NCBI GenBank assembly: GCA_017848155.1
Contig: JAGAKC010000082.1
Span: 1-16,748, forward strand
Reading direction: 5' to 3'
DNA from: Oscillospiraceae bacterium
Lineage (GTDB): Bacteria; Bacillota; Clostridia; Oscillospirales; Ruminococcaceae
Length of the DNA: 16,748 bases
Shown: positions 643 to 12,243 of the stretch, piece after piece
How the letters are laid out: each line of letters starts with the position of its first letter
Position numbering within the stretch: position 1 is the stretch's first letter
Made by a program: the position numbers and the translations under genes
The notes under the pieces: generated by a model
Databases searched by the model: none
What the model was told of the DNA's origin: nothing
What the model saw: only the letters and a program-made list of their open reading frames with translations

Positions 643-671
643 TTGCCAAATTTATGATCATATGATATAAT
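643..671 (+). promoter_or_regulatory. Promoter of the cysteine-rich lipoprotein / lgt-like operon
   Basis: TTGCCA (643-648), 17-base spacer, TATAAT (666-671). The predicted transcript start is near 678. The ATG at 679 would then be almost leaderless, which favours the ATG at 730 as the true start of the next gene. It is divergent from the riboswitch promoter, with about 50 bases between the two -35 boxes. Confidence 0.75.
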
Positions 672-729: not shown

Positions 730-1125
730 ATGAAAAAGATCATCGAGATCATCCTTACTGCGGCAGCAGCGGTAGCGGTGGTCGGCGCACTGCTCATGAG
801 CTGTGGATGTAAATCTGCCGAAGAACGCCTGTTTGAAGAAGTGACAGGTGTGGATTACGACACCGCTTATGTAATGGCTAATGTTGCACGGCTTATGCCC
901 GAAGCCGGATGTCTTACCTGTGTAGGCTGTATCAGTGCATCAGACGGATGCTCTTCATTCAACGGATGTATTGACTGCTTCGGAGTAACAGCATGCCGCG
1001 GCGACAATTTGGAGGATTATATGATGACAATAAAAGGCTGCGGTGGATGCTACATATCGACGTTTGCCGTACCCGATGAGTCAAACAATAAAATGATGCC
1101 CGTATACGGATGCTACAACGAATAA
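730..1125 (+). CDS. Small cysteine-rich lipoprotein
   Basis: 131 residues from the ATG at 730, which has an AGAGG site about 8 bases upstream; the in-frame ATG at 679 lies at the predicted transcript start and lacks a site. Residues 1-24 are a hydrophobic export signal ending LLMSC, a lipobox-like sequence with C25 as the lipidation candidate. There are 12 cysteines: 25, 27, 61, 64, 67, 74, 80, 83, 89, 104, 107 and 128. Most of those after residue 60 follow a glycine (GC pairs), and CxxC spacings occur at 61/64/67, 80/83 and 104/107. I recognise no named family. The pattern would suit metal or cofactor binding, disulfides, or thiol modification outside the membrane. The next gene, one base downstream, is an Lgt paralogue, so the pair may be substrate and enzyme; that link is inference. 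Confidence 0.85.
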   Translation: MKKIIEIILTAAAAVAVVGALLMSCGCKSAEERLFEEVTGVDYDTAYVMANVARLMPEAGCLTCVGCISASDGCSSFNGCIDCFGVTACRGDNLEDYMMTIKGCGGCYISTFAVPDESNNKMMPVYGCYNE

Positions 1126-1126
1126 T

Positions 1127-1894
1127 ATGGCACCGATAATACAGATAATACTGCCCTCCTACGGATTGCTTACGGTAATAGGCTTCATCGCCGCATTCCT
1201 TATACTGTACGCAAGAGGTAGCAAAAATGATATTTCCTTGCTGAATCTGGTTCAGATCGGCATATTCGCAATACTCGGACTTGCCGTGGGAAGCAGGATA
1301 CTTTTCGCCATCACCAGCATACCCGAGATGATAGCTCATCCCGAAAACATCGCAGCGATGATCATCGGCGGCGGCTTCGTCTTTTACGGCGGTCTTTTCG
1401 GAGCGATGGGCGCACTGCTGTTGTATTGCAGGCTGAAAAAGCTGGACAGGGCGATGGTATTCAATATCATCGTACCATGCTTTCCGTTGTTCCATTTCTT
1501 CGGACGTATAGGCTGCTTCATGTCGGGCTGCTGCTACGGCATACCTTGCAGCTTCGGCTTTGAGATGGTATCGGCTCCGGGAGTGCTTCGATTCCCCGTA
1601 CAGCTTGCAGAGGCCGTGTGCAATGTGGTCATCCTGATAGTACTGCTCGTACTGGAGCGGAAAAGGCCACACACTGACCTGCTAAAGGTCTATCTGCTGT
1701 CGTATGCGATGTGCAGATTTATTCTCGAATTCCTGCGTGGCGACGAGATACGAGGAATATGGCTGTTTCTGTCCACATCGCAGTGGATATCCCTCGGCAT
1801 CATAATCTTCATCGCAGCAAAAACGCTGCCGAGCAGGAACAAAAAAGCTCCTGTAGAAGCATCGCCGGAGCAATCAGAGCAACCTGACACATAA
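1127..1894 (+). CDS. Prolipoprotein diacylglyceryl transferase (Lgt) family membrane protein, non-canonical paralogue
   Basis: 255 residues with about seven membrane segments and a short hydrophilic tail rich in E, S and P. Lgt moves diacylglycerol from phosphatidylglycerol to the lipobox cysteine of preprolipoproteins. Lgt landmarks are in order: LPSYGLLTVIGF near the N-terminus, GGGFVFYGGLFGA (81-93), FFGRIGCFMSGCCYG (124-138), RFPVQL (155-160) and RFILEFLRGD (197-206). Against E. coli Lgt by memory, the arginine of GRIG (R127) and the late arginine (R204) remain. The catalytic-region histidine of HGG is tyrosine (Y87), and the usual GN(F)INGE motif is GCFMSGCCYG. It therefore belongs to the GCCYG-type group rather than the classical housekeeping form. 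It starts one base after the cysteine-rich lipoprotein stop and is surely co-transcribed. It may be a true Lgt or a specialised transferase; lgt is not assigned as a symbol for that reason. Confidence 0.85.
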   Translation: MAPIIQIILPSYGLLTVIGFIAAFLILYARGSKNDISLLNLVQIGIFAILGLAVGSRILFAITSIPEMIAHPENIAAMIIGGGFVFYGGLFGAMGALLLYCRLKKLDRAMVFNIIVPCFPLFHFFGRIGCFMSGCCYGIPCSFGFEMVSAPGVLRFPVQLAEAVCNVVILIVLLVLERKRPHTDLLKVYLLSYAMCRFILEFLRGDEIRGIWLFLSTSQWISLGIIIFIAAKTLPSRNKKAPVEASPEQSEQPDT

Positions 1895-1898
1895 CGAT

Positions 1899-1924
1899 AC
1901 CCCCGAAAGATTCCTTTCGGGGGT
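1899..1924. terminator. Strong hairpin between convergent genes
   Basis: ACCCCCGAAAG (1899-1909) and CTTTCGGGGGT (1914-1924) form an 11-bp perfect stem with a 4-base loop. It fills the 34-base gap between the lgt-like gene and the flippase-like gene, which converge here. Neither flank has a good T-tract, so it may act as a bidirectional terminator or mainly as a 3'-end stabiliser. Confidence 0.65.
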
Positions 1925-1928
1925 AAAC

Positions 1929-2909
1929 TTATTCAGCTTTTTCCGCTGTTTCCTGCGGCTCCTCCTGCTTTCTGAGCTTTATCTTTGACATCTTACGTAT
2001 CCTGGACCATATGAATGCAAGCACCACCAGAGCAAGCTCGGGGATAGTCTGCCAAAGACGGGATACAACGGAGATGACCATAGCATCTCCCTCGGGCATT
2101 ATCATCATGAGTCCTGCTACGATGATACCCTCACGCACGCCAAGACCTGACGGAGCGAATATCGCAAGTATTCCCATGATGGCGGATATTCCCCATATTC
2201 CTGCGCAGAAAAGCATCTGCGAAAGCTCTATAGAGGGATAGATGGACTGTACCAGAATAAAGAAGCCTGTGCCTACGATGAGCCAGTTTCCGATAAACAG
2301 CAGCACCACCTTAAGCATCTGTGAATACTTCATCGGTATCTTAAGGTCCTTTTTAAACAGCTTTCCGATGATACCGAGGAAGAAATTGATTATCTTCGGG
2401 TGAATGCATACAAAGAACGCAACTATCAGCGCAACCGTTATCCACTTGTAGTTTTCAAGCAGCTCGTTCGGGAAAAAGAACAGCGAAACGATAAACAGCA
2501 TCGCCGCACCAAGCAGCGTACATACATTCTCGATGAAAAAGCACACCGTGACCTTAGGGAGAGGCGCTTCCTCCTCCTTATAATAGGTGAGCCTTGCCGC
2601 AAGCATGAACACCTTTCCGGGGATATATTTTCCCAGAATGGAGTACAGATAGCTCGTGACCGCCTTTTCATAGCCTATAGCACAGTTGTTGATCTTTGTG
2701 ATGTAGTGCCACAGACTTGCAAGCGTGAACTTGTACACAAAATAAAACAGCATGGACAGCACAAAGATACCGATATCCACATTTGCTATCTTCTCGGAGA
2801 ACTCGTCCCAGTTCTTCCAGAAGTACCATACAAGGAATACCACGACCAGCACTGCGAACAGTATTTTTGATACCTTAAGGATCAGTTTTTTATTTAATTT
2901 CACTTTCAT
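1929..2909 (-). CDS. Flippase-like (LPG-synthase transmembrane-type) membrane protein
   Basis: 326 residues, with many hydrophobic membrane segments and a charged C-terminal tail rich in K and E. The stretch SYLYSILGKYIPGKVFMLAARL (about 86-107) and the downstream GLGVREGI motif are hallmarks of the UPF0104 / lysylphosphatidylglycerol synthase transmembrane-region family (flippase-like domain). No C-terminal aminoacyl-transferase domain is present, so this is not an MprF. Stand-alone members often sit among envelope-polysaccharide genes and are thought to help move or modify lipid-linked glycans; the activity is not established. It follows the pyruvyltransferase-family gene by 9 bases, with only a weak AAGGGGAAG site some distance upstream of the ATG, so translation may be coupled. 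Confidence 0.85.
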   Translation of the reverse strand: MKVKLNKKLILKVSKILFAVLVVVFLVWYFWKNWDEFSEKIANVDIGIFVLSMLFYFVYKFTLASLWHYITKINNCAIGYEKAVTSYLYSILGKYIPGKVFMLAARLTYYKEEEAPLPKVTVCFFIENVCTLLGAAMLFIVSLFFFPNELLENYKWITVALIVAFFVCIHPKIINFFLGIIGKLFKKDLKIPMKYSQMLKVVLLFIGNWLIVGTGFFILVQSIYPSIELSQMLFCAGIWGISAIMGILAIFAPSGLGVREGIIVAGLMMIMPEGDAMVISVVSRLWQTIPELALVVLAFIWSRIRKMSKIKLRKQEEPQETAEKAE

Positions 2910-2918
2910 TTCAGCAAG

Positions 2919-4202
2919 TTACTTCCCCTTTTTGGAGTTTGAAGTGATATCGTCTATAACATCACCTATAAGTCTGATATTGTCACGGGAGCTTTCCAGC
3001 ACCTCGGGAAGATGCTCCGATATCTGCTTTCTAATCGTATCATTATCTGCCATGAAGCTGTTGAACTTCTCCTTGAGTGTTTCCAGCTCAAGCGATGAGA
3101 AATCCGCAGCATATTCTCCGAGTCCGAACATGTCAAGGACCTCTTTGTACTTATGGCTCCAGCCTATAAGAAGCACAGGCGTGCACTTTTCAAGTGCGCC
3201 TATCATCGCATGGAAGCGTGAAGCCACAAGGCACTTGCTTCTTGCCAGAAGCTCACGTATCTCCTCGGGAGCCATCTCTCTCGGATACCAGCGCACCCTT
3301 GATCTATCTGCGACAGAATCATACACTTCCGTACAGATAATGAGATCATTGTTGCGTGGCTTGCTGCTGCCCTCACGTGCAGCATTTGCAATTATCAGCA
3401 CATTATAGCCCTGCCCGTTGAGCCAGTTGATAAAGCCTGTCATGCAGCCCTTGTAATCAACGCCCATCTTTTCGCATTTTTTCTGAACAACGCTGCTTAT
3501 AGACAGCGCCACCACATTGTCGCCGTAAAAATCATCAGAAGCGCACAGCCTGTCCACTTCATTCTTCCAGTATTCACTGTCAGGCATGGAAAATGCACCG
3601 TCAGCGCACAGCTTTACATTTTTTGTGATATTTATACCTGCAAGGTTATCCTGTGTGATCTTTCCACGTGCACAGATGAGCCTTATCTTAGGCAGTATCC
3701 ATTTTGCAAGGAATCTGTTCCATCCATTTTTGAAGGTACCCAGTGCCTGCGAATACTTCACGACCGGCACACCGCACATCATGGGCACCGCCGCACACAC
3801 AAAAGCATATGTGTTCATAACAAAGCCACGGCTGTCAACAAAGGATATGCCTGCCTCGTCGATGACCACATCCGCCTCGGAGTATGCCCTGATTATCTTA
3901 TTCAGTCTGAAAAGACCTCTCAGACCCGGGATAAAGCGCATAAAGCTGTACAGTATCGCTAACGGGAATGTGATAAACAGCAGCTTTTCAGGCTTTGTAT
4001 TGACCACCTTTATAAAATCATATTTCTCGGGCATCTCTGCAATAAGACGTCTGTCAGCGTCGGGATATGTGCTCATAAGCAGTATATTGAGATCATCTCC
4101 GTAGCGCTCCTTAAGCTGCTTTATCGAGCTTTGCAGCATAGCGGCAGCGCCCTTGTTACCACTGAAGCAGGCAGCGGTTATGGCTATCTTGATCGTTTTC
4201 AT
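2919..4202 (-). CDS. Polysaccharide pyruvyl transferase family protein
   Basis: 427 residues, soluble, with no signal peptide. The N-terminus MKTIKIAITAACFSGNKGAAAML has the family's GNxGA motif at about residues 15-20. The C-terminal half carries SRFHAMIGAL (328-337) followed by PVLLIGWSHKYKEVLDMFGL, the usual nucleotide- or donor-binding end of PF04230. Members attach pyruvate ketals from phosphoenolpyruvate to sugars of cell-surface polysaccharides (CsaB and WcaK types). Which glycan is modified cannot be told. It is the first gene of a two-gene leftward operon with the flippase-like protein, behind a consensus promoter at 4317-4345 and a leader of about 108 bases. The start at 4202 has a modest AGAAAG site. 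Confidence 0.9.
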   Translation of the reverse strand: MKTIKIAITAACFSGNKGAAAMLQSSIKQLKERYGDDLNILLMSTYPDADRRLIAEMPEKYDFIKVVNTKPEKLLFITFPLAILYSFMRFIPGLRGLFRLNKIIRAYSEADVVIDEAGISFVDSRGFVMNTYAFVCAAVPMMCGVPVVKYSQALGTFKNGWNRFLAKWILPKIRLICARGKITQDNLAGINITKNVKLCADGAFSMPDSEYWKNEVDRLCASDDFYGDNVVALSISSVVQKKCEKMGVDYKGCMTGFINWLNGQGYNVLIIANAAREGSSKPRNNDLIICTEVYDSVADRSRVRWYPREMAPEEIRELLARSKCLVASRFHAMIGALEKCTPVLLIGWSHKYKEVLDMFGLGEYAADFSSLELETLKEKFNSFMADNDTIRKQISEHLPEVLESSRDNIRLIGDVIDDITSNSKKGK

Positions 4203-4365: not shown

Positions 4366-5688
4366 CTATTTCTCGGATATTTTCAGGCTAAGCAGTGCAG
4401 TATAACGGCCTTTTTTCTCTTCAAGGCTGAAAACGCCGTCATATTTCACAGCCAGATCATTCAGTATGCCTAGTCCCAGACCACTGCCGACAGGAAAGCT
4501 GTCATCCCTCTTATCCGAAATAGTATTCTCGCAGTTTATAAACAGATACCGCATCTCGGAAAACATCTTTATATTGACTCTGCTGTTCTTCGCTCCCGCT
4601 GAAGCCTTTACAGCATTATCAAGTATATTTCCCAGCGCACTGCACAGATCATACATCTCTACACTGCCGATGTTTCCGTTTTCATCACAGTCATCAAAGA
4701 CCGTGTTCTTTATGTCTACTGTCAGCTCCACGTCATGCTGCTGTGCAAGCTGCACCTTATCATGAAGAACAGCATTGATGAGCGGAACATCACAAAATAC
4801 AGTATAGTCCGCCATGTCGAACCTGCTCTCCACCTCACAGAAGAGCTGTATTCCGCTGTCACATGTGTCAGGATCCTCTATCAGCTTTGCCACCGCAGAA
4901 AGCTCGTTGCGGATGTCATGACGCAGCCTGCGAATCTCATTATGCGAACGGCTGAGATTCTGATAATAGCTGCGCTCTGCGGCAAGAGCCATCTCCCTGT
5001 CCGCCTTTTCCTTGTTCAGCTTTTCTGACAGCGCTGCAAGATATATGGAATGGAAGATAAAAAACTGCGATACCAGTACAAGACCAAGACATACCAGCAG
5101 TATCACCCTGTCCGCCTCTACAGCATATCCCGAACAGACAGCAAAGGCTTCTATCTGAACAAAGGGAATGATACAGTACAGTATGAGCCGCTTTCTGAGA
5201 AAGGCTACCTTTTTAACTGTCAGAACTATATATGTAGCATATGAAGAAAGCCAGTATATCGGTGCAAAGCAAGCACATGTCACCAAATGCTGTACATTCA
5301 GTGTCGCAAATGCGCCGAACTCACGCCCGAGAAGATTTTCCGCCGTTAAGCCAACGATAGCGTCAACTATACCGACAATAAGATAGAACATCAGAAACAG
5401 CAGCAGATTCTTCCAGTACGTGTCATTGCAAACGACCACAAAGAACAACGCCATCAGGCAGACTGTGATCACTCCACGCAAAAGACTGAACCATGGCATC
5501 TGATTCATGCTCATCATTCCGAAAAATGATAAAAGACCGATCACGACGCAGTACGCTGCCAATACAACAGACAGCTTGTATTTTGTACCGCATAGCTTAC
5601 ACACATACAGGCCTATGGGAAATATCTGAAATGCCGAAACCAGCATGGTAGCAGGATACAGCCATACGTATTCCGCCTCAATAAGCAT
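4366..5688 (-). CDS. GHKL-type sensor histidine kinase (AgrC/LytS-like)
   Basis: 440 residues from the ATG at 5688, chosen because GGAGGAATAAAG precedes it; an upstream extension to 5793 has no such site and overlaps the regulator. Residues 1-215 hold about six membrane segments, as in peptide-sensing AgrC-type receptors. A short coiled linker follows. The phosphoacceptor is probably H257 in RRLRHDIRNEL. The ATP-binding domain has the N box GNILDNAVKAS (353-363) and the G box GSGLGLGI (401-408). The kinase should phosphorylate the LytTR regulator encoded 2 bases upstream. The ribosome binding site lies inside the last codons of that regulator, so the two are translationally coupled. The signal is unknown; no adjacent precursor peptide or AgrB-like processing protease was found. 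Confidence 0.93.
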   Translation of the reverse strand: MLIEAEYVWLYPATMLVSAFQIFPIGLYVCKLCGTKYKLSVVLAAYCVVIGLLSFFGMMSMNQMPWFSLLRGVITVCLMALFFVVVCNDTYWKNLLLFLMFYLIVGIVDAIVGLTAENLLGREFGAFATLNVQHLVTCACFAPIYWLSSYATYIVLTVKKVAFLRKRLILYCIIPFVQIEAFAVCSGYAVEADRVILLVCLGLVLVSQFFIFHSIYLAALSEKLNKEKADREMALAAERSYYQNLSRSHNEIRRLRHDIRNELSAVAKLIEDPDTCDSGIQLFCEVESRFDMADYTVFCDVPLINAVLHDKVQLAQQHDVELTVDIKNTVFDDCDENGNIGSVEMYDLCSALGNILDNAVKASAGAKNSRVNIKMFSEMRYLFINCENTISDKRDDSFPVGSGLGLGILNDLAVKYDGVFSLEEKKGRYTALLSLKISEK

Positions 5689-5690
5689 CT

Positions 5691-6407
5691 TTATTCCTCC
5701 ACTCTTGTGCCTCTGCGCATCAGTACGATACGCTTGAATTCTTCCTTGCGGGAACGACTGACAGAAAGCTCCGTGCCGTCCGCCATGGTACACCAGCCTG
5801 CACTCAGAAGCTTAACATAATCTGAATTCACAACAAAGCTCTTATGACAGAATGCAAAGTGGTCAGGAAGCCTGTCATGCACCTGCGACAGCTTTTCATA
5901 TATCCTGTGAGTATTACCGTCTGCGCAGTGCAGAAGCAGGGAATGTCCGCAGCTTTCGATATACATTATCTCACGGCAGGAGAGGGTGACACGGTTTGAC
6001 GCTGACCTGAATGTCAGCATGGGCGTTGATTCCTTTTCGATTATGCTGTTTTTCAGCTTTTCGAGGCAGCGCTGCACGATGTCAGCAGACGGCGGCTTTG
6101 CAATAAGCGCAAACGGGGACAGCTCATCACTTTCAATAAATATGTTCTGTGAATACTTCTCCGCATATGCGGTATAGAATATCACAGGAAGCTCGGGATT
6201 GCAATGTACGAGCTTCGCCGCTGCGCTGATACCGTTTTCAGCTCCAAGCTCCACATCCATTACCACTGCGTCATATCCGCCATCCCCTATAGCCTCACAA
6301 AGACTGTCAGGATCGTTGAATCCGAAGCACTCGGCGTCCAGTTCTTTCATCAAAACGCTCAGTGCATCTATATCATTTTTATTATCATCACATATTGCGA
6401 TCTTCAT
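5691..6407 (-). CDS. LytTR-family response regulator
   Basis: 238 residues from the ATG at 6407. GGAG at 6415-6418 lies 7 bases ahead of it; starts at 6413 or 6425 would add 2 or 6 residues but sit too close to the site. The receiver domain (about 1-115) begins MKIAICDDN with acidic D7/D8, phosphoacceptor D51 in VVMDVELG, and K104 in IAKPPS. The C-terminal DNA-binding domain (about 130-232) is LytTR: IMYIESCGHSLLLHC, HRIYEKLSQV and FAFCHKSFVVNSDYV are classic. It should bind DNA when phosphorylated by the partner kinase and regulate a small target set. Such regulators often control neighbouring transporter or bacteriocin genes, so the divergent ABC operon is a fair candidate target. Confidence 0.93.
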   Translation of the reverse strand: MKIAICDDNKNDIDALSVLMKELDAECFGFNDPDSLCEAIGDGGYDAVVMDVELGAENGISAAAKLVHCNPELPVIFYTAYAEKYSQNIFIESDELSPFALIAKPPSADIVQRCLEKLKNSIIEKESTPMLTFRSASNRVTLSCREIMYIESCGHSLLLHCADGNTHRIYEKLSQVHDRLPDHFAFCHKSFVVNSDYVKLLSAGWCTMADGTELSVSRSRKEEFKRIVLMRRGTRVEE

Positions 6408-6439
6408 CAACATTCTCCGTTTCATATTTCATATCTATC

Positions 6440-6526: not shown

Positions 6527-6546
6527 GTGTATATCGTATATACACA
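6507..6546 (+). promoter_or_regulatory. Triple half-site operator for the YtrA-type GntR repressor
   Basis: TGTGTATAT (6526-6534) and ATATACACA (6538-6546) are perfect inverted arms with a 3-base centre CGT, covering the expected transcript start. A third copy, ATATACACA at 6507-6515, lies in the promoter spacer and is an inverted partner of the middle copy. A dimeric GntR protein bound here would block RNA polymerase, the usual autoregulation of YtrA-type genes. Confidence 0.75.
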
Positions 6547-6565
6547 ATTTAAACAGAGGTACCAT

Positions 6566-6940
6566 ATGGACATCATACTCACAAACTCATCTGATGAGCC
6601 GATCTATCAGCAGATAACCTCGCAGATAAAGACGCTCATAATGGATGGTACGCTTAGTGCGGGGGACGCCCTGCCCTCAATGCGTAATCTCGCTATGCAG
6701 CTCCGCATAAGCGTGATAACCACCAAACGAGCCTACGAGGAGCTTGAACGTGACGGGTATATCGAGACCTTTGCAGGAAAGGGCTGCTTTGTAAAAGGAC
6801 AGAACACCCAATTCCTGCGTGAGGAGAATATCCGCCAGACGGAAGAGCTTCTTGCAAAGGCATGTGTCAAGGCGAAGATGTGCGACCTTAGCCTTGACGA
6901 AATGAAAGAGATACTCGAAATGATCTACGGAGGGGAATAA
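6566..6940 (+). CDS. GntR-family (YtrA subfamily) transcriptional regulator
   Basis: 124 residues from the ATG at 6566, with AGAGG at 6555-6559; an upstream in-frame ATG at 6527 falls in the -10/operator region and is not used. The N-terminal winged helix is typical: EPIYQQITSQIKTLI, then GTLSAGDALPSMRNLAMQL, ITTKRAYEELERDGYI and FAGKGCFV. The C-terminal part is a short helical dimerisation tail of about 45 residues, which marks the YtrA group; there is no FadR- or HutC-type ligand domain. Such proteins repress their own ABC transporter operon and are relieved by cell-wall or membrane stress. The ABC ATPase gene begins one base after its stop. Confidence 0.93.
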   Translation: MDIILTNSSDEPIYQQITSQIKTLIMDGTLSAGDALPSMRNLAMQLRISVITTKRAYEELERDGYIETFAGKGCFVKGQNTQFLREENIRQTEELLAKACVKAKMCDLSLDEMKEILEMIYGGE

Positions 6941-6941
6941 G

Positions 6942-7820
6942 ATGAACACCTACGAAAATGCGATTGAGATCAACGGACTTACCAAGAAATACGATGGCTT
7001 TACACTGGACAATATCAGCTTCAATGTACCCAAAGGAAGTATCATGGGCTTTATCGGACAGAACGGTGCAGGAAAGACCACCACGATAAAGGCACTGCTG
7101 AACATCATAAAGCCTGACAGCGGCAGCATAAGCATGCTTGGACTTGACAACAAGGAGCATGAATATGAGATCAAGGAGCAGATAGCTGCGGTGTTTGACG
7201 AGCAGCCGTTCCACGAAGATTTCAGTGCGAAGGAGCTCAGCATAATGATGAGCGGTATCTATTCCGCATGGGACAAAGCAAAGTTCACCGATTTTCTCGA
7301 CAGGTTCGGACTTCCCTACAAAAAGAAGATAAAGCAGTTCTCCAAGGGCATGAAGATGAAGCTTCAGATAGCCGCTGCGCTTTCCCACGGAGCAAAGCTG
7401 CTTGTAATGGACGAGGCCACGACAGGTCTTGACCCCGTTGTCAGAAACGAGATACTTGACATCTTCCTCGAGTACCTTCAGGACGAAACGAACAGCATAC
7501 TTATGTCATCGCACATCACATCAGACCTTGAAAAGGTGGCAGACAGCGTTACCTTTATCGACCACGGAAAGCTGCTGCTGACAGGCTACAAGGACGACAT
7601 CCTTGACAGCCATGCGGTGATAAAATGCAGCAAGTCCGACTACAAGGATATAGACAGAGCAGACTTCATCAGCGCACGCCTTACCGATTTCGGTGCGGAG
7701 GTAATGGTATCCGACCGCAGTGCCGCAAAAACAAAATACTCTGGTCTTGCCATCGACAAGACCACACTTGAAGAGATCATGCTGTTCTACGTAAATGCTG
7801 TCAAAAAGGAGTGGACATGA
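6942..7820 (+). CDS. ABC transporter ATP-binding protein
   Basis: 292 residues, soluble. Walker A is GQNGAGKT (39-46), the signature loop is FSKGM (133-137, a variant of LSGGQ), and Walker B is LLVMDE (153-158), followed by ATTGLDP. The C-terminal 70 residues form the extension seen in YtrB- and BcrA-type exporter ATPases. It should power the two ABC-2 permeases encoded next. The ribosome site GGAGGGGAATAAG lies within the end of the GntR gene. The stop TGA overlaps the start region of the following gene. The substrate is unknown; gene order GntR - ATPase - permease - permease fits peptide, antibiotic or envelope-stress exporters. Confidence 0.95.
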   Translation: MNTYENAIEINGLTKKYDGFTLDNISFNVPKGSIMGFIGQNGAGKTTTIKALLNIIKPDSGSISMLGLDNKEHEYEIKEQIAAVFDEQPFHEDFSAKELSIMMSGIYSAWDKAKFTDFLDRFGLPYKKKIKQFSKGMKMKLQIAAALSHGAKLLVMDEATTGLDPVVRNEILDIFLEYLQDETNSILMSSHITSDLEKVADSVTFIDHGKLLLTGYKDDILDSHAVIKCSKSDYKDIDRADFISARLTDFGAEVMVSDRSAAKTKYSGLAIDKTTLEEIMLFYVNAVKKEWT

Positions 7821-8641
7821 TGAAAGCAAAAACATCGGCTCCGCTGAAAGGTCTGTTCTTCCGTGAGCTTTATCTCGGCAGACGTACATATATCGCGGTA
7901 ACGGGAATATTCTTCGGTATAGTGACGCTCATCCTTCTTGTACTGCTAAGTATGAAAGTCGGAAATCTCGCAAAGCTCCCCGCAGATGTAATAGAGAGCG
8001 CAAAGGGTACCATCCGCATGGCAGCGATGTTTGTTCCATCCGCAATATTCTTTATGAATACATCTGTAGTAGTGGATACAGCACCCGCCGACCTCAGCGA
8101 AAAATGGCTGAGATTTATGTATTCCTCTCCCGTATCGGAAGGAAAGATTCTCGGCGTTAAGTTTTCTGTAATGTTTATTACGGCTGCTGTAGGCTACGGA
8201 CTTTCCGCACTTCTTGCGCTTGCAGTGGGTGCGCTCATGGGCGAGCCTGCCACCATAACGGACTTTGGTATCATAGCTGCGATCATGCTGATAGTGGTGC
8301 TGTTTTCTATCCTTATAACAGTGCTTTCGTATGCATTCAAATCCACCACCGGTGCGATAGTTATAGTACTTATCCTTGCGTATTTCGGAATGGGTATAAT
8401 AATAGGACTTGCCGGAGTGGGCAACCCTGCACTTTCGGATGAGGAGCTGTTTCAGAATATAAGCGATACAATAAACGGATTCTGTAAAAGTGTATTCCCG
8501 CTCTCTCCGCTGATACTGGCGGGAATGATCGCTCTCGGCTGGGGATTATGCACAGCTATCCTTAAGCACCGTGACGCAAAGCGTCCTCAGCTTTTCCGCA
8601 AAAAGGAAAAGCCTGCAAAAGATACAGCAAAGGAGGAATAA
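7817..8641 (+). CDS. ABC-2 type transporter permease
   Basis: 274 residues from the ATG at 7817; the ATG at 7820 is equally possible and a GTG at 7811 is less likely, since AAAAAGGAG ends at 7811. About six membrane segments are visible, with a soluble stretch after the first (NLAKLPADVIESAKGT) and a basic, lysine-rich C-terminal tail. The N-terminal LKGLFFRELYLGRRTYIAV motif, with an RE..RR amphipathic helix before the first membrane helix, is typical of small ABC-2 permeases. The start overlaps the ATPase stop by 4 bases, so the two are translationally coupled. It probably pairs with the 240-residue permease downstream. Confidence 0.85.
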   Translation: MMKAKTSAPLKGLFFRELYLGRRTYIAVTGIFFGIVTLILLVLLSMKVGNLAKLPADVIESAKGTIRMAAMFVPSAIFFMNTSVVVDTAPADLSEKWLRFMYSSPVSEGKILGVKFSVMFITAAVGYGLSALLALAVGALMGEPATITDFGIIAAIMLIVVLFSILITVLSYAFKSTTGAIVIVLILAYFGMGIIIGLAGVGNPALSDEELFQNISDTINGFCKSVFPLSPLILAGMIALGWGLCTAILKHRDAKRPQLFRKKEKPAKDTAKEE

Positions 8642-8644
8642 AGC

Positions 8645-9367
8645 GTGCAAGGATTACTTTATAAAGAGTTTTACGAAAACCGCAGGTGGCTGAAGCTTTT
8701 CGCTGCTTTTGCATTTTACGGTTTTTTTATTATGCTGAGCCGCATCTTCTTCATGTTCAAGGTAAACGAGCAGCTGGAACTGCTGACAGCCTTTGCAACA
8801 CCTTTGGTACTTATGCTTATGACGGGAATTATTAATACTACGATATTCCGCTATGATGAAAAAAAGCTGTGGTCGGGCTTTGTAAGCTCCACACCGGTCG
8901 CAGCAAAGGGACAGGTGAAGTCAAAATATCTGTTTGCGCTTTTATTGTACATGATCACCCTGTCTGCCTGCTTTATAGCTGATACGTTAAACTGTGCGCT
9001 GCACGGAGCTGCTCCCGTATTTGAAACGGTGGCACTGGTGTTCTGGGTGCAGCTTATATTCAGCGCACTAGAGTTCCCCTTTGTGATACGCTTCGGCAGC
9101 AAAAAAGGCAACAATATAAGAGCCGTCATTGTTATAGCTTTATTGTTTATCATAATAGTTTATGCGCTGTTCGGCGATATTTCTATATTTATTACCGAAG
9201 AGGGCTTCTACGATTTTGCAACGAGATTATTAAAAGGCGAGATAGGCGCAAAGGAGATGCTGTGGGTGAATGCGGTAATTCCTTATGTTGCAATAACGCT
9301 GTATATCCTGTCCTATAAGCTGTCATGTAAATTCTACCAGAAGGGAGCTGAGAGCTTTGAAAACTGA
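8645..9367 (+). CDS. ABC-2 type transporter permease, second subunit
   Basis: 240 residues with a GTG start at 8645, preceded by GGAGGAATAAAGC. About six membrane segments. The N-terminus QGLLYKEFYENRRWLKLF matches the first permease (KGLFFRELYLGRRTY) in pattern, so the two look like diverged paralogues forming a heterodimeric channel. Three bases separate it from the previous gene, and its stop overlaps the CPBP gene by 11 bases. No substrate-specific feature can be seen. Confidence 0.82.
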   Translation: MQGLLYKEFYENRRWLKLFAAFAFYGFFIMLSRIFFMFKVNEQLELLTAFATPLVLMLMTGIINTTIFRYDEKKLWSGFVSSTPVAAKGQVKSKYLFALLLYMITLSACFIADTLNCALHGAAPVFETVALVFWVQLIFSALEFPFVIRFGSKKGNNIRAVIVIALLFIIIVYALFGDISIFITEEGFYDFATRLLKGEIGAKEMLWVNAVIPYVAITLYILSYKLSCKFYQKGAESFEN

Positions 9368-10311: not shown

Positions 10312-12243
10312 TCAGATATTTCTCGGCTGGCGCTTGTGGCGTGCCTTGTCATTGTACATCAGTCTGTCCGCAAGCTCTATAAGCTCGTCGATGGTATCCA
10401 CGCTCGAAAGCGACGCACAGTATATACCGATGCTGACATTTACGGTGTAGGGATTTCCCGATGTGCTGTTAAGACCTGCAAGAACAGAATCGAAATTCTG
10501 ACGGTATCTCTCCGCCTGCTCCTTCGCATCGCCGCTGCATATCTTTGCAACAACGAATTCGTCACCGCCGAAGCGTGAACAGATTATTTCCGTATCGCCC
10601 TTTTCAGCCGCACCTGTAAGCGCATTTGCCGTTATCCTCAGCGCTTCATCGCCCGCATGATGTCCGAAATTATCATTGATATACTTCATATCATTCAGAT
10701 CGATGGAAACGATGAACACATCCTTATTGCTGTCTGTGAATTCCGCAAAATCCTCTTTGAAGTTCTTGTAGAATCCATAGCGGTTGTATATCTTTGTAAG
10801 GTGGTCATGCGTAAACATGAACTCCATCTTCTTGTTGAGGAAGCGCATATGCTCGTGTGTACGAACATTTTCCAGACACTGATTCGCCATCATGGTATAT
10901 GTGTACATCTGATCCTTGCAAAGGTCCATCGACATATATATGCATGTATAGTAGCCGATTATCGACTCCTGCGAGTGAAGCGGCACCACGAGCAGAGTAT
11001 GCTTTCCGTCGAATACATCCATCAGATTCGGCAGCACCTGAGATGTGGGGAAGCTCTCACCCTCATGCTGTCTGCCCTCGTTGATACACTCCACAAGAAG
11101 ATGCATCTTTTCGGGGTATTTGCCGCTCCGGCTCTCTTCGATGGTCTTATTATCATCGTCTTCAGAGAAGTATCTATAATACTCGTCAGTAATACATACA
11201 CGTGTGCACTCAAAGCTGAATTTTCTCAGCACCTCGCGGGCATTGTCGAGTGTAGGATTTGCCGATATCTGATTGCCCATGTCGTTCATATGCTCTTCAT
11301 AGACCCTGGCATAGGCATAGTTACGCACATACTGAGTAAGGCTCTGACCGCTCTTAAGTACATCACGCTCTGTACAGCCACAGCTCTCGGAAAATACAGG
11401 AGAATAATCAAGCACCACGTCATACGGCTCAATGCCCGGATGTGTAACGATTTCCTCGACCAGTTCAACAAGCGCCCCGGCAAGTGCGACGTTATCACGC
11501 ACCGCTGTGGTAAGACGAGGGTCGTGATACTTTTCTATCTCCATACCATCAAAGCCTGTTACGATAACATCTTCAGGTACATTATAACCCTTTTCGGCAA
11601 GCTTAAGGCATACAGCCATCGCCATGGAATCGTTTGCACAAACAAACGCATCAGGCAGCGGCTCTCCTGTCGCAAAGAACTTATCCATAGCGTCATAAGT
11701 GGGAACATCCCAGAAATCGCCGTAGTAGATATCCTCTTCACGAAGAGTAAGACCGTGCTTCGCCATTACTTCAGCACAGCTGTCTATCCTTGTCTGGGCG
11801 AAATCATTCCCCTTTGTTCCGGCCATATGGATAATACGCTTGCAATCATGTTCTGTAATAACATGCTCAACGATCTCACCGAATGCGTTTCCATAACCGA
11901 AATTTACACAGAAAGCATTCTCACAGTGCTCGTCGATGTAGATGACAGGTACATTATGCTCGTTGCAGCGTTTTGCTATCTTATTGAACAGCTCCTTCTG
12001 CATCTCATTGGTCTGCATGATGAGCATGACATCCAGCATGTCATAGTTTATCATCTCATAGATCGTTTCAGCACCCCTGTTGCTGGGAGTGTCATAATAA
12101 AGATCCTCAAAGCAATGAAAAAGAAGCAGGCGGTAGTTTTCTCTGGCAGCGACCTCGTCAACAAGACATTCCACCACCGGTTTTACAGGCTCCTTCTGCA
12201 TTGTAGTACAGCAAAAGCCGAGTATATAACAGTTATCCGTCAC
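10312..12243 (-). CDS. LacI-type sugar sensor fused to a GGDEF diguanylate cyclase
   Basis: 643 residues, with no signal peptide or membrane helix, so cytoplasmic. Residues 1 to about 295 match the effector-binding half of LacI/GalR regulators (Peripla_BP_3): PVIYIDEHCENAFCVNF, PDAFVCANDSMAMAVCLKLAEKGYNVPEDVIVTGFDG, PRLTTAVRDN. The LacI DNA-binding helix-turn-helix is missing. Residues of about 300-480 form a linker, possibly GAF-like. The GGDEF domain follows: YNRYGFY, IDLNDMKYINDNFGHHAGD with metal-binding D515, intact GGDEF at 559-563, SIGIY, and ADRLMYNDK. The inhibitory RxxD I-site is absent (DTEI there). It likely makes cyclic di-GMP in response to a sugar or similar ligand. The GTG start at 12243 has GGGGG at 12251-12255. 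It is transcribed alone. Confidence 0.92.
   Translation of the reverse strand: MTDNCYILGFCCTTMQKEPVKPVVECLVDEVAARENYRLLLFHCFEDLYYDTPSNRGAETIYEMINYDMLDVMLIMQTNEMQKELFNKIAKRCNEHNVPVIYIDEHCENAFCVNFGYGNAFGEIVEHVITEHDCKRIIHMAGTKGNDFAQTRIDSCAEVMAKHGLTLREEDIYYGDFWDVPTYDAMDKFFATGEPLPDAFVCANDSMAMAVCLKLAEKGYNVPEDVIVTGFDGMEIEKYHDPRLTTAVRDNVALAGALVELVEEIVTHPGIEPYDVVLDYSPVFSESCGCTERDVLKSGQSLTQYVRNYAYARVYEEHMNDMGNQISANPTLDNAREVLRKFSFECTRVCITDEYYRYFSEDDDNKTIEESRSGKYPEKMHLLVECINEGRQHEGESFPTSQVLPNLMDVFDGKHTLLVVPLHSQESIIGYYTCIYMSMDLCKDQMYTYTMMANQCLENVRTHEHMRFLNKKMEFMFTHDHLTKIYNRYGFYKNFKEDFAEFTDSNKDVFIVSIDLNDMKYINDNFGHHAGDEALRITANALTGAAEKGDTEIICSRFGGDEFVVAKICSGDAKEQAERYRQNFDSVLAGLNSTSGNPYTVNVSIGIYCASLSSVDTIDELIELADRLMYNDKARHKRQPRNI

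Follow-up and report, generated by a model that had tools for sequence, protein, structure and literature searches.

The window analyzed here, the 16,748 nucleotides of contig JAGAKC010000082.1 from an Oscillospiraceae bacterium (GCA_017848155.1), contains a two-gene unit in which a small cysteine-rich protein with a putative lipobox is followed by a paralogue of Lgt. Lgt is usually regarded as a housekeeping enzyme for lipobox cysteines. We find that the pair is real and belongs to something larger: to judge from sequence comparisons, the clade of the window's enzyme sits within a larger Clostridia group of Lgts that carry a triad of cysteines and are mostly paired with a small partner. The reading that we favor, and in which our confidence is about even, is that the window's Lgt is a diacylglyceryl transferase dedicated to its partner, that the target cysteine of the partner would be located at the outer face of the membrane, and that the cysteine-rich version of the system would have arisen by a partner swap.

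The gene pair and the residues of its Lgt

730..1125, + strand: small cysteine-rich predicted lipoprotein gene (ATG at 730, stop at 1123-1125, 131 amino acids)
1127..1894, + strand: gene of the Lgt paralogue with the Cys triad (CCYG; ATG at 1127, stop at 1892-1894, 255 amino acids)

Direct reading of the window sequence confirmed the pair. Both genes are on the same strand, and the spacer between them consists of base 1126 alone. A ribosome-binding-like AGAGG precedes the ATG at 730; an in-frame ATG at 679 would make the small protein longer by 17 residues. The small protein contains 12 cysteines (positions 25, 27, 61, 64, 67, 74, 80, 83, 89, 104, 107 and 128), eight of which are in GC dipeptides, compared with a mean of 1.2 GC dipeptides in 5000 shuffles of its own residues, none of which reached eight. 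Its N-terminal hydrophobic segment is followed by a cysteine that fits a lipobox pattern, either C25 (LMSC) or C27 (SCGC).

The product of the second gene matches PF01790 (LGT) at 140.4 bits, the cut-off being 24.9. Its AlphaFold2 (AF2) model has a mean predicted local distance difference test score (pLDDT) of 90.9, and its best match in the PDB is the Escherichia coli Lgt structure 5azb (Foldseek E 2e-7, template modeling scores 0.67/0.61). In the alignment with 5azb, Y12, R127, G138 and R197 of the window's Lgt correspond to Y26, R143, G154 and R239, the residues that E. coli Lgt requires according to the excerpted text of a 2026 mBio survey (PMC13251419). Two other residues essential in E. 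coli, H103 and N146, are not kept: Y87 and C130 occupy their sites, and both exchanges occur in other Lgts. C135 and C136 stand at the sites of E151 and L152. E. coli numbering is used for alignment columns below.

Residue columns were counted in an alignment of 67 Lgts, which comprised the window's enzyme, 62 other paralogues and 4 housekeeping copies. Cysteines are found at the N146, E151 and L152 sites in all 63 paralogues and in none of the 4 housekeeping copies, which have N, E and A there. All 63 paralogues also keep R143, R239, Y235, E243 and R246, with Y26 kept in 61/63 and G154 in 62/63; each of the seven Lgts of the window's clade described below retains Y26, G99, R143, G154, Y235, R239, E243 and R246. 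Tyrosine at the H103 site is also present in 4/4 housekeeping copies, and the excerpted survey states that tyrosine replaces H103 in Firmicutes Lgts and that in more distant Lgts N146 is exchanged for C and E151 for C or D (PMC13251419). Since exchanges at H103, N146 and E151 are known in other Lgts, the exchanges themselves are not new. What distinguishes the window's Lgt, as the alignment reads, is the triad of C130, C135 and C136 in an enzyme that retains most of the essential residues.

A preliminary description of the window had reported a 131-residue lipobox protein with 12 cysteines mostly in GC pairs, one base away from an Lgt-family gene with the residues YGG and GRIGCFMSGCCYG, and all of these statements agree with what we observe. 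It had also treated the exchange of histidine for tyrosine as an oddity, which it is not, as tyrosine appears to be the Firmicutes norm. The change at the NGE site, which it had pointed out as well, is shared at N146C with the other Lgts just mentioned.

The genome, which is 77% complete, carries another lgt of the housekeeping type. Its C-terminal part is preserved on contig C10, at an edge of the contig and ahead of folD, and this fragment reads like the housekeeping copies of relatives. On these grounds we rejected the idea that the window's Lgt is the housekeeping Lgt. An lspA gene is present as well. A search with PF01790 over 81 genomes, including the window's, produced two score classes: full-length housekeeping lgt scored about 189-271 bits, and the second copies found in the genus scored about 114-144 bits; counted from the same table, second Lgt copies occur in 30/43 genomes of the genus.

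Recurrence of the cysteine-rich partner

Seven loci of the window's Lgt clade were seen, distributed over three families and two orders, and in all seven a Cys-rich protein is encoded directly upstream. The gap is 1 nucleotide in the window, 2 in L074 and L219, 3 in L048 and L083, 5 in L082 and 25 in L117. A lipobox is visible in six of these seven partners. The small gene of the window's own family was found in just 4/43 genomes of the genus, namely the window's, G016, G032 and G035, and the last three were also the three loci returned by a profile scan of the genome contigs with the small family. In the window, G016 and G032, the Lgt gene comes immediately after the small gene. Lgts of this kind also follow Cys-rich lipoproteins that escaped the family profile in G004 and G014, which are two more genomes of the genus, and in G187, from another family (14 Cys in 115 amino acids, 11 in 89 and 13 in 75, respectively). 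The partner in G790, which belongs to another order of the class, has 17 Cys in 185 amino acids and a gap of 2 nucleotides.

The database family of the small protein has 23 members, one of which is nearly identical to the window's copy; two further matches of the family search concern a foreign N-terminus only. A loose lipobox pattern is present in 21/23 other family members, and one of the two misses is a short record. The family alignment shows nearly invariant G26-C27 columns, and in its 22 rows C61, C80 and C83 are invariant and C64 and C67 nearly so; the family has the spacing CLxCxGC. One member, P0018, is extended at its C-terminus by a hydrophobic stretch, which may reflect a fusion or an error of assembly. 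Searches with the window's small protein gave no Pfam family above cut-off, no NCBIfam family and no match to PF13828 (DUF4190) at E 0.1, and a PDB sequence search returned no relative (best E 0.39). As its AF2 model is weak (pLDDT 68.7, predicted template modeling score 0.46) and Foldseek gave no match under E 0.001, nothing was drawn from the model. On these sequence and structure searches, a known fold for this protein was rejected.

For eight of the 23 small-protein records, the longest contig has exactly the same length as that of one of the 120 Lgt matches listed out of 7173, compared with a mean of 0.2 and a maximum of 3 such coincidences in 5000 rounds of jittered lengths. These coincidences imply eight more pairs, a linkage that is indirect.

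The mature parts of the Cys-rich partners were compared for L082, L083 and L117, not L219. With hhalign, the match of the window's family to the L082 and L083 partners was confined to the signal-peptide region, and that to the L117 partner was weak but longer, with some Cys paired at 71% probability. Homology with these three partners was rejected on this basis. A database search with the L082 partner found two close copies and nothing more. The partners of the clade thus appear to have in common their Cys richness and, where it is visible, a signal peptide, the mature parts compared being mostly unalignable.

As a separate observation, the small-gene copy of G035 (L006 / L009, contig C162) is fused to an N-terminus that also occurs in another secreted family, P0024 (PF02368), and its C-terminus is truncated. 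A recombinase-like fragment, called by eye from its open reading frame (ORF), is located beside it.

Cysteine-triad Lgts and DUF4190-like partners

Lgt searches covered 394 genomes of the order, 391 of the class and 297 of the family, plus low-scoring PF01790 copies among relatives. Neighbours were inspected in 141 distinct loci, 103 in one set and 38 in a further one (46 loci minus 8 repeats, which are the window and seven others). L085 (no Lgt match) and L046 (a housekeeping fragment) were left out of the counts, and 6/77 order-search matches fall outside the neighbour count (G282:C45, G220:C8, G392:C29, G153:C5, G100:C56 and G092:C7). The motif GC....CC.G is present in 140/141 loci, the remaining one, L151, having GYSYG. 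A DUF4190-like partner is encoded no more than 350 bp upstream in 110/141 loci (78/103 and 32/38), and a Cys-rich lipoprotein is upstream in 7/141 (6 and 1). Among 30 housekeeping lgt loci treated as a control by the same rules, there were no DUF4190-like neighbours and no Cys-rich lipoproteins; the motif GRWGNF.N.E was found in the 30 housekeeping loci examined. One control locus, L018, has a Cys-rich ORF of 152 amino acids at a distance of 283 nucleotides, which is devoid of a signal peptide and looks like an out-of-frame read.

Within the genus, 22 of the 28 genomes whose Cys-triad Lgt falls outside the window's clade contain DUF4190, compared with 0/15 genomes that lack such an Lgt (Fisher 4e-7). 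By coordinates, 21 of the 22 have at least one copy beside the Lgt. When seven DUF4190-like partners were compared with Pfam PF13828, two were above the cut-off, four were below it and that of L147 was not listed. The partners of L147, L044 and L134 are of the DUF4190 type with extended runs of Cys (in L147, for instance, SCVACGGCAGCLACIG); they look intermediate between the type with a Cys at the end of a transmembrane segment and the Cys-rich lipoproteins.

A comparison of the DUF4190-like proteins shows that those adjacent to an Lgt differ from the others in one column. In a profile built from the adjacent set, which is a source of bias, a Cys occupies the end of the last transmembrane segment in 76/78 Lgt-adjacent proteins versus 1/13 non-adjacent ones (Fisher 4e-12). 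Three of the 17 non-adjacent controls were dropped (E above 1e-7), leaving 14 rows, 13 of which have a residue at this column; the controls exclude extra DUF4190 copies near Lgt in the genus. Most of the raw non-adjacent tails are also without the Cys motif. A crude tail count, now superseded by the column count, had found at least two Cys in 60 of the 70 Lgt-adjacent proteins that contain the anchor motif (78 in total) versus 0/11 (of 17). Of the 76 partners with the aligned Cys, 50 have a second one at +3 and 28 a third at +6, and in 51 the aligned Cys is preceded by A, S, T or G. Read by eye, the partners would have an N-in/C-out topology.

The preliminary description had proposed a dedicated pair and had named three outcomes that would speak against it: a pairing unique to this genome, the absence of any other lgt and a small protein that is not lipidated. 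None of the three was observed: the pairing recurs, with seven loci seen and eight more implied, a separate lgt exists as the housekeeping-type fragment at a contig edge, and the lipobox is present as a pattern. The wider association of Cys-triad Lgts with DUF4190 strengthens the proposal. With regard to the GC-repeat type of partner that it described, the Cys richness and the signal peptide recur, but a conserved GC-repeat fold does not.

Phylogeny of the paralogues

In a FastTree phylogeny of 184 rows, for which 75 of 120 listed protein matches were taken, the six Cys-rich-paired Lgts known at that time and the 75 database proteins form one clade with a support of 100, which contains none of the 78 DUF4190-paired Lgts. 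A quick IQ-TREE run with 67 rows likewise placed seven Cys-rich-paired, eight size-linked and 18 other Lgts in one clade (Shimodaira-Hasegawa-like approximate likelihood ratio test 96), with 0/30 DUF4190-paired Lgts in it. As the DUF4190-paired rows surround this clade, the trees are most simply read as a swap of the partner from DUF4190 to a Cys-rich lipoprotein. The branch of L219 is long, and support for the backbone is weak.

Proposed mechanism and alternative explanations

A partner-dedicated transferase could work as follows. The two genes would be co-expressed; their order and spacing are observed, and the pair is probably co-transcribed. The partner would be inserted so that its Cys is at the outer face of the membrane, and Lgt would transfer diacylglyceryl from phosphatidylglycerol to this Cys, which in the window's clade would be the lipobox Cys. 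A partner with a lipobox would then be cleaved by the general LspA. Most members of the group have as their partner a DUF4190-like membrane protein with a Cys ending its last transmembrane segment, and in the window's clade a secreted Cys-rich lipoprotein would have taken its place.

Several findings weigh against this reading. The window's Lgt misses the cut-off of the NCBIfam lgt equivalog TIGR00544 (85.3 vs 118.9 bits). Neither kind of partner is directly upstream in 24/141 loci (19 and 5 in the two sets). Among these, a DUF4190-like gene is located 923 bp upstream in L232 and 92 bp downstream in L229, L079 adjoins another Cys-bearing transmembrane protein, and L256 is truncated close to where its contig stops. 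The profile by which DUF4190-like partners were called and aligned was trained on part of the same adjacent loci, and the non-adjacent controls, 14 proteins that represent 9 loci, are not all independent because several of them are tandem. The partner of L074 (G032) is cut by the contig start with its lipobox out of view. No Lgt of the clade was found in G035, although the small gene there is chimeric and truncated. Finally, the housekeeping Lgt could handle a lipobox partner.

A more far-reaching proposal, which we put forward tentatively and consider rather doubtful, is that the Cys-triad Lgts constitute a separate lipidation class. Such enzymes would attach diacylglyceryl to uncleaved multi-pass DUF4190-type partners with no lipobox or signal peptidase involved, and to one or several Cys of the Cys-rich secreted partner in the window's clade.

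The strongest rival to a dedicated transferase, although unlikely in our estimate, is that a Cys-triad Lgt no longer transfers lipid and that the triad and the CxxCxxC of the partner perform thiol or metal chemistry, with the lipid-binding fold as a scaffold. The presence of C130, C135 and C136 in every paralogue and in no housekeeping copy would fit such a function, and the C-x2-C-x2-C spacing is found in both kinds of partner, as the +3 and +6 Cys of the DUF4190-like proteins and as CLxCxGC in the window's family. However, almost every row of the alignment retains Y26, R143, G154 and R239, residues that would be superfluous in a scaffold. Furthermore, the excerpted survey reports that an E. 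coli lgt strain is helped in part by the Lgt of L. interrogans, which has N146C (PMC13251419).

Next in rank, and less probable again, is a second general Lgt whose neighbour is a regulator, a chaperone or a stabilizing subunit and not a substrate. The DUF4190-like partners are without a visible N-terminal lipobox and do resemble small integral membrane subunits, but the close association of the partner Cys with Lgt adjacency (76/78 vs 1/13) is not predicted by a subunit role. Moreover, there are two partner types, both with Cys and with no evident common mature fold. The remaining explanation, an ordinary lipoprotein gene that shares an operon with a redundant lgt by chance while the housekeeping enzyme does the work, draws on the usable lipobox pattern and on the housekeeping-type lgt and lspA of the genome, but we regard it as very improbable, since 7/7 loci in three families with mostly unalignable mature parts are hard to obtain by chance linkage or simple inheritance.

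Comparison with known systems

The window's Lgt is similar to E. coli Lgt (PF01790; 5azb) in its fold and in the positions of Y26, R143, G154, R239, Y235, E243 and R246. Unlike the E. coli enzyme, it has Cys at the N146, E151 and L152 sites, one coupled partner gene and a sub-cut-off NCBIfam score. Second Lgt copies and Lgts with N146C, among them those of Mycobacterium smegmatis (MSMEG_5408) and Leptospira interrogans, resemble it in one or the other of these features, according to the excerpts of PMC13251419, which also put the number of genomes with two Lgt copies at about 1,300. Apart from plasmids with lgt and conjugation lipoproteins, these excerpts mention no partner gene of the window's kind. 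DUF4190 (PF13828) proteins are the partners of the sister Cys-triad Lgts, a family to which the partner in the window does not belong; the Lgt-adjacent DUF4190 proteins have the Cys motif, whereas the non-adjacent ones are mostly without it.

The diacylglycerol-modified ribosomally synthesized and post-translationally modified peptides (DAG-RiPPs), as described in the excerpted text of PMC12636315, are like the window's pair in that small peptides enter the lipoprotein pathway, and unlike it in that their synthesis involves a multinuclear non-heme iron-dependent oxidative (MNIO) enzyme together with the ordinary lipoprotein pathway. MNIO was absent from the Pfam matches of the six window proteins scanned; the contig ends upstream of the pair. 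No description of an Lgt/DUF4190 or Lgt/Cys-rich pair was found in the literature listings, most subscription papers being outside the search, and the name DUF4190 was not found in the literature searched.

Taken together, the data suggest a widespread, little-studied system of an enzyme and a cysteine partner, of which the window's pair is one branch. If a partner-dedicated transferase is the correct reading, protein lipid attachment in Clostridia would be broader and more specialized than thought, and paralogues found across the class would mostly be tied to their own Cys-bearing partner, which would open a first way into the study of DUF4190 proteins. Such pairs would also be natural enzyme-substrate pairs for studying how Lgt chooses its cysteine.

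Surroundings of the pair

643..671, + strand: promoter-like site for the pair (TTGCCA, 17-base spacer, TATAAT, with TG before the second hexamer; 11/12 consensus)
1900..1923, no strand assigned: perfect inverted repeat of 10 bp, situated after the Lgt gene and before a convergent gene (1929-2909)

The promoter-like site is suggestive at most because the region contains 6 such sites compared with 2.9 expected. The inverted repeat is possibly the transcript end of the pair; a terminator scan did not list it, and a T run after the repeat is absent. A defence system was rejected, as PADLOC gave no match for the pair or for the one DUF4190 partner tried.

Divergently from the promoter-like site of the pair, a cobalamin riboswitch (RF00174, 69.9 bits) is located at 378-568 on the - strand, with a 12/12 promoter match ahead of it at 592-564. 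The gene behind the riboswitch (1-327, - strand) encodes a secreted-looking protein and is cut by the contig edge. On the other side of the pair, an LPG_synthase_TM-type membrane protein adjoins a polysaccharide pyruvyl transferase (1929-4202, - strand), followed by a GHKL histidine kinase and a LytTR response regulator with overlapping frames (4366-6425, - strand). A GntR-like/ABC-transporter-like set at 6527-9367 (+ strand) was called by eye from ORFs, and a long ORF at 10312-12243 (- strand) resembles, also by eye, a fusion of a LacI-type sensor domain with GGDEF.
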